This document shows positions 28,526 to 36,006 of a stretch of 64,000 bases of DNA, in pieces. The translations under genes and the position numbers were made by a program. The stretch covers positions 434,001 through 498,000 of the forward strand of contig PMSM01000003.1 in assembly GCA_003168335.1 (NCBI GenBank), written 5' to 3'. This DNA is from Blastocatellia bacterium. Lineage in GTDB: Bacteria; Acidobacteriota; Blastocatellia; Pyrinomonadales; Pyrinomonadaceae. The stretch's first letter is position 1. Each line of letters opens with the position of its first letter. The notes under the pieces were generated by a model. That model had not been told where the DNA came from. It did no database searches and was given only the letters and a program-made list of their open reading frames with translations.

Positions 28526-28616
28526 TCTCAGAGATCACAAGTCAGAGATCAGAAGTCAGTCAGCTCAAAAAAACCAAATCTGCAATCCGAATTTCGCAAT
28601 TCGAAATCCAGTCAGC
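28526..28616. repeat. degenerate heptanucleotide tandem array (13 units)
   Basis: tctcaga gatcaca agtcaga gatcaga agtcagt cagctca aaaaaac caaatct gcaatcc gaatttc gcaattc gaaatcc agtcagc. Confidence 0.75.
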
Positions 28617-32443: not shown

Positions 32444-33403
32444 TCACAGCTCCGACTCTTTGGCTTTCAGCACGACCGGCCGCCCCCGCTTTCGCAGAAC
32501 CAGTAACAATCCGACGATCAGGACCACAGTCACCCCGCCTGCCAGCCGCACGATGTTCATTACTACCGCGCCGTATTTTCCCGTCGCCGGATCGTAGTGA
32601 TAACAGTAAAGCAGCAGCGCATCGACGGGCGTGCCGATTTTGTTTTGCGAGGCTTCAACCAGGCCGAGGCGCAAGTCTTTCGGCGGATACTCGATGCCGT
32701 AAAAATAACGGGCGAGTTTTCCCTCCGGGGTCAGGACCATGATGCCGCTCGCGTGGGCGAACTGGTTTGTCTGCTCGTCCCAAACATAGCGAAAACCAAC
32801 GGCTTCGGTTAGCCGCTTGATGTTCGCTTCATCGCCGGTAAGAAAATGCCAGCCCCCTTCACCTCCGGGGCGGTTGTAAGCCTTCACATAAGTACTCTTC
32901 TTGGCGGCGGCCAGGTCCGGCGTTTCGCGCGAATCAAAACTGACCGTGACTACTTCATACTGTTCGCCAATATTGAATGAGATTTGTCTGAATGCGCCCA
33001 GCTCTCCATTCATGACCTGATTGCAGAGCATCGGGCAGGTGTAATAAACCAGAGACAGCACGACCGGCTTGCCGTTGAAGAACTGACTCAGACGCACCTC
33101 GCGGCCCTGCTCATCTTTGAAAACGGCGTCGAGCGGAATTTGCTCGTTTAATCTCTGATCGATGCCGACGTTCTTCAGGGCTTTTGGTAAGCCGGTCGAC
33201 ACCGGTCCGGATTCGGGACGCGTGCCGTAAAGCGGCAGGTTTGGTTGCGGTACGCCGGGCTGCCCGAGAGCAAGTAGGCAGTAGGCAGAAAGCAGGAGGC
33301 AGACTGCAGGAAGCAGACGGCAGGAGCCAGACGGCAGGAAGTAAATGGCGAAACGCACAGCGCCAATCACGCCGGCGAGTTTTCTGCATACTGCCTTTTG
33401 CAT
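32444..33403 (-). CDS. SCO1/SenC family copper chaperone
   Basis: KPVVLSLVYYTCPMLCNQVM; N-terminal hydrophobic segment encoded by heptamer repeats. Confidence 0.9.
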   Translation of the reverse strand: MQKAVCRKLAGVIGAVRFAIYFLPSGSCRLLPAVCLLLSAYCLLALGQPGVPQPNLPLYGTRPESGPVSTGLPKALKNVGIDQRLNEQIPLDAVFKDEQGREVRLSQFFNGKPVVLSLVYYTCPMLCNQVMNGELGAFRQISFNIGEQYEVVTVSFDSRETPDLAAAKKSTYVKAYNRPGGEGGWHFLTGDEANIKRLTEAVGFRYVWDEQTNQFAHASGIMVLTPEGKLARYFYGIEYPPKDLRLGLVEASQNKIGTPVDALLLYCYHYDPATGKYGAVVMNIVRLAGGVTVVLIVGLLLVLRKRGRPVVLKAKESEL

Positions 33404-33450
33404 ACTGCCTTCTCTTTCCTGCCTACTGCTTCCTGCTGTCTGCCGCCTGC
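33274..33450. repeat. inverted pair of heptanucleotide arrays around the SCO start codon
   Basis: 33274-33343: gtaggca gtaggca gaaagca ggaggca gactgca ggaagca gacggca ggagcca gacggca ggaagta; 33381-33450: tttctgc atactgc cttttgc atactgc cttctct ttcctgc ctactgc ttcctgc tgtctgc cgcctgc. Confidence 0.85.
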
Positions 33451-33959
33451 GGTCTCGCTGGTAGTCCCTGCTTCAAAATTTCTTCTTTCGCTTTTTCGAT
33501 CGACAGGCCGTATCGCTGGCCGCTTTGATCGACCGGGCCGTTCTCAAGGATGTCGTCCCAGTGCCGGCGCAGGATCTTGATCTCGTACAGCGCGTTTTTC
33601 GGTTGTGCGGCGCCGGCCGTAATGGCATTGCCGGACTCTTCTTTCTTAATTGCCGCGGCCTTCTCAAGATCTTCCGCGAAGCCCGGCGCGCCCTGCAGGC
33701 GCGGCTCAGGCGGCAGACGATCTTTGTCGGTCAGCGCCATGGGTGACGGCGGCGGTTCCCTGGCTTCGTTTTCGAAAGAGCGAAACAAAGCCCACGTGAG
33801 AAAGAAGGTGGCAATGGTCAGCACCGAGAGTCCGACGAGAAATTTCACGATGCCAGAGACCTGGACGTCGCTGACCTCGTGGGCGACATCGACGTTCTTG
33901 ATGCGCGCCACGTCCGGCGCTTCCGTCACGTGACCTTCTTTGTGATCTCTCTCAGTCAT
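33423..33959 (-). CDS. hypothetical single-TM protein in act-cox operon
   Basis: ORF in conserved operon position; TM then EPRLQGAPGFAEDLEK. Confidence 0.7.
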   Translation of the reverse strand: MTERDHKEGHVTEAPDVARIKNVDVAHEVSDVQVSGIVKFLVGLSVLTIATFFLTWALFRSFENEAREPPPSPMALTDKDRLPPEPRLQGAPGFAEDLEKAAAIKKEESGNAITAGAAQPKNALYEIKILRRHWDDILENGPVDQSGQRYGLSIEKAKEEILKQGLPARPQAADSRKQ

Positions 33960-34048
33960 TTATTTGTCACATTACCCACCCGTTACCGCGGGTGGTACTG
34001 ACCTGTTTTCCCTGCCGGCTGCTTACTGCCTACGTGCGTTTCGGTTCT

Positions 34049-35236
34049 TCAATGTCCCGCATGTGCGGCCAGCGCCTGCTCAAGCTGTGGATCGTTAATC
34101 GGGACCAGCGAACGCTTTTGCAACTGCCACGCAAAGGTCGCAATCCAGAGTCCGCCGATCGCAAACGGCGCCACCAGATCCATCCAACTCAAATGAAAAT
34201 GCTCACGATTGAAGCTCGGCTCGATCAGCCAGATCACATCCACCACGCGGGTTAACAGAATCAATAGTGCCAGCATCCCCAGCCGCTGCGGACTCTTTTT
34301 GGCCGCGCGCGACAATAGCGTCAAGAAGGGAAAGACAAATTGCAGAATGACGATCCCCAGCGCAATTACACCCCAGCCGCCATGTTTGCGCGCGACGAAC
34401 CAGACGGTCTCTTCGGGCAAGTTTGCCGACCAGATAATCAGGTATTGCGAGAACGCAAAATACATCCATAGCATTACCAGGGCCATCATCAGATTGCCCC
34501 AATCATGAAAATGCGACGTGCGCACGACCGCGTTCATAGGCTCGCGCTTTGCCAGCCACGACATTACCAGAATGCCGAACGCCAGCGCGCTTAAACTCCA
34601 TGAAGCTACAAAGATTAATCCATAGATCGTTGACGACCAGGCCGGGTCGAGGGACATCACCCAGTCGATCGAGGCAAACGTAATGGTCAGTATCAGCAGA
34701 CCCAGTCCCGGCCCGCTGATCATCTGCAAACGTTTCGAGAAGCGGCGATCCGCAGTGCGATCGTGTTGCAGTGAAAGCCAGTTGAGCAACAGCGCCATCA
34801 GCGACCAGATGGCAAAATAGAGCGCCGCGCGCATCATGAAGAATGCCGGATTCAAATAATGGGCGGCCTTTTCGCGCAGCACGGGAACCTGATCCATTTC
34901 CGCCCGGTTCGTCCAGGTGTAGATTTGATTCAACCCCACCAGCACCGGAATGAACAGCATCAACATCAGCGGCAGCGTGCGGGTCGCGGCTTCGAGCACG
35001 CGGCGAATTATCAGTCCCCAGGCGCCACCGGTCAGATGCTGCAACATCAAGAGCGCCATGCTGCCAATCGTGATTCCGATCCAAAAGATGAAGCCAACCA
35101 GATAAGCGTGAAAGAACTGCGTCCGATCAACCAATAAGCCGAAAACCAGCAGCGCGAAGAACAGCGCGCCTACGGCCAGCGCCAGAGTGCTCACTCGCTT
35201 CAAATCTCGCGGAGGTGTGTATCCGGCTTGAATCAC
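34049..35236 (-). CDS. actF: alternative complex III subunit ActF
   Basis: Polytopic NrfD-like-related membrane protein; probable GTG start at 35236 overlapping actE stop. Confidence 0.88.
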   Translation of the reverse strand: MIQAGYTPPRDLKRVSTLALAVGALFFALLVFGLLVDRTQFFHAYLVGFIFWIGITIGSMALLMLQHLTGGAWGLIIRRVLEAATRTLPLMLMLFIPVLVGLNQIYTWTNRAEMDQVPVLREKAAHYLNPAFFMMRAALYFAIWSLMALLLNWLSLQHDRTADRRFSKRLQMISGPGLGLLILTITFASIDWVMSLDPAWSSTIYGLIFVASWSLSALAFGILVMSWLAKREPMNAVVRTSHFHDWGNLMMALVMLWMYFAFSQYLIIWSANLPEETVWFVARKHGGWGVIALGIVILQFVFPFLTLLSRAAKKSPQRLGMLALLILLTRVVDVIWLIEPSFNREHFHLSWMDLVAPFAIGGLWIATFAWQLQKRSLVPINDPQLEQALAAHAGH

Positions 35237-36006
35237 TTCTTCCCTCCGGGAGCGCGGACACCCTGTCCGCCGGGCTTGATGCTCGGCGTTTGGGCCGCTT
35301 GCGCCGCGGGCATCTGGCTCAACTGCAAAGCGCGAATGTAGGCGATGATCTTCCAACGATCCTCAACCGGGATCTGTGACGCATAGGAAGGCATCGCGCC
35401 CCAACCGTTGGTCATCGCATCAAAGAAATGCCCGACCGGCGCCTGGCGCAGACGATCCTGGTGATACGAAGCGGGCAAAGGTTTGTTAAAGCCGCGGCGC
35501 GCGATCATGCCGTCGCCATCACCGGTCGCGCCGTGGCAAACTGAACAGAAAATGTCGTAGCGCTGCTGGCCGCGATCGAGCACCTCTTTGGTGATCGGAA
35601 AAGGAAACGTCTCGACGTCATCCGGATACAACGCCGCGGAAGCGCCGGTGGTCGAGACCGGAGTCGCGGCGCCCGGCGGTACCGGCTGGGCCGTGGTGCC
35701 GGCATTCGATTTCTTTCCGAAATAGAATTCGCGATCGGCGCGCAGGTAACCACGCGGCACCGTGCCCGGAACCAGCGGTCGCGATGAGAGACCGTCCCGG
35801 AAGAAAGAGTTCTCGCGAAAAGCTTTTGCCTTGGGCTGGTCCTGCATGTCTCTTCTGCAAGCAGAGGTGAGCAGTAAGCAGTAAGCAGTGAGCAGCAAGC
35901 ACAAGAGACGCCGGGACGCGGGGAAGCGGGGGCGCGGCGAAAAAGATTTCTCCGTGTCTCCGTGTCTCCGGGTTTCCGCGTCGGGTGTTTTTCTACAGCT
36001 CAACAT
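35233..36006 (-). CDS. actE: alternative complex III subunit ActE, mono-heme cytochrome c lipoprotein
   Basis: CSVCHG heme motif; lipobox LLTSAC encoded by heptamers. Confidence 0.9.
   Translation of the reverse strand: MLSCRKTPDAETRRHGDTEKSFSPRPRFPASRRLLCLLLTAYCLLLTSACRRDMQDQPKAKAFRENSFFRDGLSSRPLVPGTVPRGYLRADREFYFGKKSNAGTTAQPVPPGAATPVSTTGASAALYPDDVETFPFPITKEVLDRGQQRYDIFCSVCHGATGDGDGMIARRGFNKPLPASYHQDRLRQAPVGHFFDAMTNGWGAMPSYASQIPVEDRWKIIAYIRALQLSQMPAAQAAQTPSIKPGGQGVRAPGGKK
35867..35984. repeat. heptanucleotide array plus inverted octanucleotide arrays in 5' end of actE
   Basis: gtgagca gtaagca gtaagca gtgagca gcaagca (35867-35901); gggacgcg gggaagcg ggggcgcg; tctccgtg tctccgtg tctccggg tttccgcg (35949-35980). 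Confidence 0.8.

Follow-up and report, generated by a model that had tools for sequence, protein, structure and literature searches.

At the start of a gene for an SCO-type copper chaperone, two opposed tandem arrays of seven-nucleotide units (heptamers) encode the hydrophobic core of the chaperone's N-terminus, its start codon and the stop codon of the preceding gene. These arrays are members of a lineage-specific, dispersed heptamer family with the consensus CTGCYNH. Arrays of this family very probably fill the edges of intergenic gaps, supply stop codons, halt at start codons that are under constraint and enter signal peptides.

Opposed arrays at the SCO locus

The features concerned lie in the second half of the window, by which we mean the whole 64-kb stretch of DNA analysed:

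32444–33403, minus strand: gene for an SCO1/SenC copper chaperone of 319 residues, with the motif CPMLC and a C-terminal hydrophobic segment
33275–33337, minus strand: CTGC-sense arm of nine heptamers, translated as the SCO hydrophobic core LPSGSCRLLPAVCLLLSAYCL
33384–33453, plus strand: opposing arm of ten heptamers, which reads as GGCAG units on the minus strand
33401–33403, minus strand: SCO start codon ATG, within the unit TATGCAA
33423–33425, minus strand: TAG stop that ends the upstream gene, within the unit TAGGCAG
33423–33959, minus strand: upstream gene, 178 residues, without Pfam match, in a cytochrome oxidase cluster
34012–34032, plus strand: weak array of three units, just downstream of a minus-strand gene (34049–35356)
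35233–36006, minus strand: gene for a cytochrome c lipoprotein (PF13442) with a repeat-built predicted signal
35868–35895, minus strand: second CTGC-sense array, of four units that read LLTAYCLLL, directly before the lipobox LTSAC

The SCO open reading frame matches PF02630 with 28.6 bits (curated cut-off 22.8, E = 1.5e-6) over a domain that starts near residue 92, as well as Sco1 relatives in the PDB, and its translation harbours the CxxxC copper motif (YYTCPMLCNQV). The domain, this motif and the location in an oxidase cluster are those of SCO1/SenC proteins; unlike in the usual members, the predicted N-terminal signal is built from repeats and a hydrophobic segment is present at the C-terminus, at about residues 281–306. 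Given this second segment, the repeat encodes the only hydrophobic segment of the N-terminal region, as stated in an earlier note, but not of the whole protein.

On the minus strand, the units of the CTGC-sense arm are CTGCCGT, CTGGCTC, CTGCCGT, CTGCTTC, CTGCAGT, CTGCCTC, CTGCTTT, CTGCCTA and CTGCCTA, and TRF calls positions 33277–33339 as a 14-nt (2×7) repeat. Both arms fit the CTGCYNH consensus. The heptamers described in the earlier note are present, with edges 1–6 bases away from those it gave, and they do encode the peptide that it reported, YFLPSGSCRLLPAVCLLLSAYCLL. The same note had the opposing array span the SCO start codon and the end of the upstream gene, and this is what we found: read on the minus strand, the arm codes for the C-terminal residues of the upstream protein (RPQAADSRKQ) and contains its TAG stop, followed by the 5' gap and then by the SCO ATG and its basic first residues, MQKAVCRK. 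As RNA, the junction yields a strong predicted fold (−93.2 kcal/mol, z = −5.7). An Rfam search of this hairpin gave no family match; the only hits, two miRNA entries that scored well under the threshold, were taken as chance. Elsewhere in the window, positions 28528–28559 carry an unrelated 14-nt tandem repeat, TCAGAGATCACAAG, in 2.3 copies.

In-frame start codons of the SCO gene occur at codons 1 (ATG), 12 and 16 (both GTG), all of which precede most of the array, and next at codon 68. Since there is none between codons 16 and 68, the array lies inside the SCO protein; we looked for a start after the repeat, which the earlier note had named as a refutation, and found none before codon 68, so that the repeat stays translated. 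The N-terminus has a Sec-type layout, with MQKAVCRK as a basic n-region, an h-region whose best 12-residue hydropathy is 2.48, and small residues at −3/−1 where the repeat core ends (ALG↓Q). It is hydrophobic and basic and is likely to be an export signal, and we infer that this repeat-built N-terminus directs the export of SCO. Gene starts, here and below, are predictions from a home-made codon-usage caller, whose calls match the open reading frames of the window apart from the point at which the cytochrome c gene begins.

Abundance, reading and placement of the CTGCYNH family

The three-unit motif is found 64 times in the 5.16-Mb genome (G000), versus 0 for the reversed pattern, and 17 times in the window, versus 0.34 expected from shuffles; a chance origin of the arrays was ruled out on these grounds. 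Of 99 family genomes, 61 contain the four-unit pattern, versus 15 of 149 genomes sampled across the phylum. The dominant unit varies with the genome (CTGCTCA in G005, CTGCCTT in G034 and CTGCCTA in G037), and this genome specificity suggests homogenisation or renewal of the arrays inside each genome. At four loci (L251, L261, L265 and L245), draft contigs end within or near heptamer arrays, so that arrays of fragmented genomes are probably undercounted.

As 7 and 3 have no common factor, an array gives one cycle of seven residues, identical in all three frames, in keeping with the triplet reading proposed in the earlier note. The CTGC-sense cycles, such as LLPTAYC, LLLTAYC and FCLLPSA, are stop-free and hydrophobic. 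Among all stop-free heptamers, CTGCTTA (read as TAYCLLL), CTGCCTT (PSAFCLL) and CTGCTTT (LLSAFCF) rank in the top 2.5–7% for hydrophobicity, and CTGCCTA and CTGCTCA in the top 15–18%. In the GGCAG sense, CTGCTTA, CTGCTCA and CTGCCTA contain a stop in each frame (TAAGCAG, TGAGCAG and TAGGCAG, respectively); in that sense, CTGCCTT and CTGCTTT give a basic cycle without stops (such as GRRQKAE), with a charge of +2 per cycle. Units of the CTGCTAA and CTGCTGA types contain a stop in the CTGC sense.

We examined the placement of 130 arrays at 83 sampled loci, picked for a strict 3- or 4-unit match (22 from the same genome as the window, the window itself and 60 from 10 relatives). GGCAG-sense arrays at gene 3' ends account for 46 of them, one of which is also at the end of another gene in the CTGC sense. 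Eighteen CTGC-sense arrays abut a start codon, and another 18 lie within the first 80 codons of a gene, including one (L231) that we set aside because the likely start, with a Shine-Dalgarno sequence, comes after the array. Four GGCAG-sense arrays are found within the first 80 codons, plus one that is also at a stop. Eight arrays lie deeper inside genes, all in the GGCAG sense, with no CTGC-sense array at such positions among the 130 sampled, and the remaining 36 are located elsewhere. In 26 cases the array contains the stop codon, and every one of these is in the GGCAG sense. Seventeen CTGC-sense arrays end −2 to +11 nt from a start codon, versus one array of the other sense. A Shine-Dalgarno core precedes 1 of 16 array-abutted starts versus 41 of 151 background starts, a difference that is not clear. 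Arrays located deep in long genes, in the GGCAG sense, occur at three loci of one genome (L246, L247 and L248 of G010), where reversed CTGCTGA units give the stop-free cycle QQSAVSS, possibly forming linkers.

Of 31 pairs of neighbouring opposed arrays, 30 are arranged as GGCAG...CTGCC, as are 37 of 38 pairs, with one reverse, in an enlarged, overlapping set; the spacers between arms range from 6 to 255 nt. Nearly all pairs sit at gene edges, so that selection and array formation are not separable as sources of this polarity, which could stem from the latter. The arms of one pair match slightly better than arms swapped within the genome, with 16 of 500 permutations as good; given this weak excess, we dropped the idea of exact pairing.

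Proteins entered by arrays and the history of the SCO signal

The 17 proteins entered by CTGC-sense arrays look exported. They include SCO, three cytochrome c lipoproteins (that of the window and its orthologs L219 in G005 and L256 in G219, all with repeat-built predicted signals), three BamA-like proteins from a single genus (L250, L259 and L263), a type IV pilin (L154), a PQQ/BamB-like protein (L227), an SBP_bac_5 lipoprotein (L234), a Ycf48-like protein (L226) and a sensor propeller (L222). Others are a VWA protein (L162), an alpha-amylase (L262) and an M14 peptidase (L268), three families that are not always exported, and two proteins lack Pfam matches (L147 and L255). In contrast, the genes that CTGC-sense arrays abut appear to code for mostly cytosolic proteins. 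The set of 16, which leaves out L251 and L269, comprises DprA, AsnB, ClpP, a 5'-3' exonuclease, an amino-acid kinase, a SucC-type protein, TruA, PfkB, LON-N, MazG, EngB, HD, GT2, TssK, a sugar isomerase-like protein and YicC; beyond these, an MgsA-type ATPase (L260) is also abutted. Of the 17 entered proteins, 14 have a lipobox or a motif of the AxA↓Q kind after the array, versus 0 of 16 abutted ones; since the motif was chosen and localization judged after the arrays had been seen, P values for the two groups are descriptive. In the type IV pilin (L154:2958–3443), both heptamer arms encode the entire leader before G↓FTLLEL. L153 was ruled out as a signal peptide, its frame being antisense to a called gene.

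A CTGC-sense array codes for the hydrophobic core of SCO in all five other members of the genus with a complete N-terminus (L032–L036). The SCO ATG lies within a heptamer in four genomes, including that of the window (L031, L032, L034 and L035), and the start units in the relatives are TATGCAG, GATGCAG and AATGCAG. One ortholog (L033 in G003) has kept the repeat core, with no clear start codon nearby; upstream of this SCO gene, a different palindromic element (CCCAGCACTGAAGTGCTGGG) is in the N-terminal frame. Outside the genus, many SCO genes have ordinary signals (L046, L047, L053 and L086), and the corresponding position is occupied by ordinary signal peptides free of repeats in SCO orthologs from other Acidobacteriota and from some Pyrinomonadaceae. 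The repeat has therefore replaced, or overwritten, an existing signal, and the suggestion in the earlier note that it created an export signal de novo is not borne out.

In a phylogeny built from 98 mature SCO domains, one of them (L039) truncated, the repeat label needs at least about 11 changes (bootstrap 10–11), of which strongly supported branches alone force 5, versus a mean of 20.9 for shuffled labels; these counts pool gains and losses and depend on the array threshold, and some sequences scored as lacking the repeat bear other repeats, such as TTGCCTT units (L058) or the GTGTCTCC type (L070). Overwriting of the SCO signal thus apparently happened several times. Repeat-built and ordinary signals have similar best 12-residue hydropathies, with medians of 2.51 (n = 23) and 2.42 (n = 73), respectively (P = 0.84). 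A second repeat, of the GTGTCTCC / GGAGACAC type, is unrelated to the heptamers and likewise has opposed arms. It codes for a portion of the SCO N-terminus in two relatives (L069 and L070) and, in the window, for an N-terminal portion of the cytochrome c lipoprotein (35920–36006, TRRHGDTEK...SPRPRFPASRR).

Possible origins, related repeats and significance

The element can be described as 5'-(GGCAG-type units)n–spacer–(CTGC-type units)m-3', an imperfect inverted repeat that occurs on either strand. We propose that arrays spread through intergenic gaps and halt at constrained codons. At gene 3' ends they simply provide the stop codon, and at the 5' ends of genes for cytosolic proteins, whose N-termini are constrained, they would stop at the start codon. 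Genes that open with a signal peptide could be entered, the array then being read as a basic n-region and a hydrophobic h-region; signal peptides would be the sole N-terminal sequences to tolerate such a reading. In the SCO case, the arrays give the upstream stop and the start codon and would form the n-region and the h-region, and the non-repeat ALG↓Q would be the cleavage site. Tolerance, possibly followed by positive use, would thus explain the placement of the arrays, rather than regulation. We more tentatively suggest that this frame-independent inverted element may be a ready-made source of signal peptides, with the GGCAG arm as n-region and the CTGC arm as h-region on either strand and in any frame, that it could take the place of the export signal at every gene start into which it grows, and that many signal peptides of Acidobacteriota may have been rebuilt in this manner.

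The arrays might instead be primarily regulatory, as RNA hairpins or translation-factor sites next to starts, their reading as signal peptides being a by-product. This would fit the 17 CTGC-sense arrays that end close to starts, resembling the TAACTGA repeats described below, as well as the strong fold of the SCO junction and the slight excess of matching between paired arms. We nevertheless consider it unlikely, as the genes beside arrays share no common function, the unit variants depend on the genome, arrays have been gained and lost at one and the same gene, the SCO hairpin matched no Rfam family and the scarcity of Shine-Dalgarno cores before abutted starts does not differ clearly from background. 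The dispersed copies, inverted arms and strict polarity also call to mind a REP- or MITE-like hairpin mobile element with heptamer arms that inserts between genes; contigs of several draft genomes end inside arrays, and another palindromic element is present in the L033 N-terminus. The variable spacers, the lack of any common core or target duplication visible by eye, the differences in unit order and number between arms and the many single arrays render such an element rather improbable.

Heptamer repeats switch HMW1A of Haemophilus (PMC8262952), a precedent for phase variation, in which changes of single 7-nt units would shift the SCO frame and toggle export. The frame is indeed lost by any change other than multiples of three units, but the units at the SCO locus are degenerate (nine units of seven sequence types), which would slow down slippage, the affected genes are mostly housekeeping (BamA-like, SCO, cytochrome c) and every ortholog seen is in frame, making phase variation very improbable. 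Finally, given that start codons are predictions only, the SCO N-terminus might be mis-called and the array untranslated, the true start being downstream. We find this scarcely credible: the next possible start, at codon 68, comes well after codon 16 and before an SCO domain that begins near residue 92, and starting there would yield a periplasmic-type protein devoid of an export signal.

The nearest published case to the CTGCYNH arrays is that of the TAACTGA direct repeats of Beggiatoaceae, also found in Cyanobacteria and Bacteroidetes (MacGregor 2015, PMC4679880). The largest class of these terminates a single nucleotide upstream of the start codon and has no ribosome-binding site, which is usually missing at these repeats, and they were proposed to be translation-factor binding sites beside start codons; only one inverted repeat was reported, and the text never mentions "signal peptide" (PMC4679880). 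Both kinds form intergenic heptamer arrays that point at a start codon a few nucleotides away and in some cases overlap the upstream stop codon, and TAACTGA rotated to CTGATAA is one base from the CTGCTAA found here. However, TAACTGA has a stop in each forward frame and is thereby barred from gene starts and signal peptides, whereas the common CTGCYNH units are stop-free in the forward sense, and their arms, unlike TAACTGA, form inverted pairs and enter signal peptides. As the units differ, we regard CTGCYNH as a separate family of a sister kind.

The STRR sequences of filamentous cyanobacteria are also degenerate tandem repeats of 7 nt that are scattered over the genome and lie mainly between genes; their units are unlike CTGCYNH, and they are not known to have a fixed inverted polarity or to code for export signals. 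Rickettsia palindromic elements, palindromes of 100–150 bp located within many kinds of protein genes, share with the CTGCYNH arrays the turning of non-coding repeat DNA into protein via open frames, but the proteins' N-terminal, putative export signals are almost the sole sites that the heptamer arrays enter. A partial literature search found no report of heptamer repeats forming signal peptides.

Signal peptides are loosely constrained, and one can seldom see where new ones originate. In the present case, the DNA from which probable export signals arose is directly readable, as a dispersed repeat that is hydrophobic in all three frames. For annotation, it is a warning that "low-complexity" N-termini of the LLLTAYCLLLTAQAQ kind are probably genuine, and the arrays offer a natural set of simple-sequence export signals for testing. 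A single rule would cover the sites at which arrays are permitted, namely stop codons, start codons and signal peptides, and essential envelope proteins appear to have had their export signals overwritten by the repeat several times.
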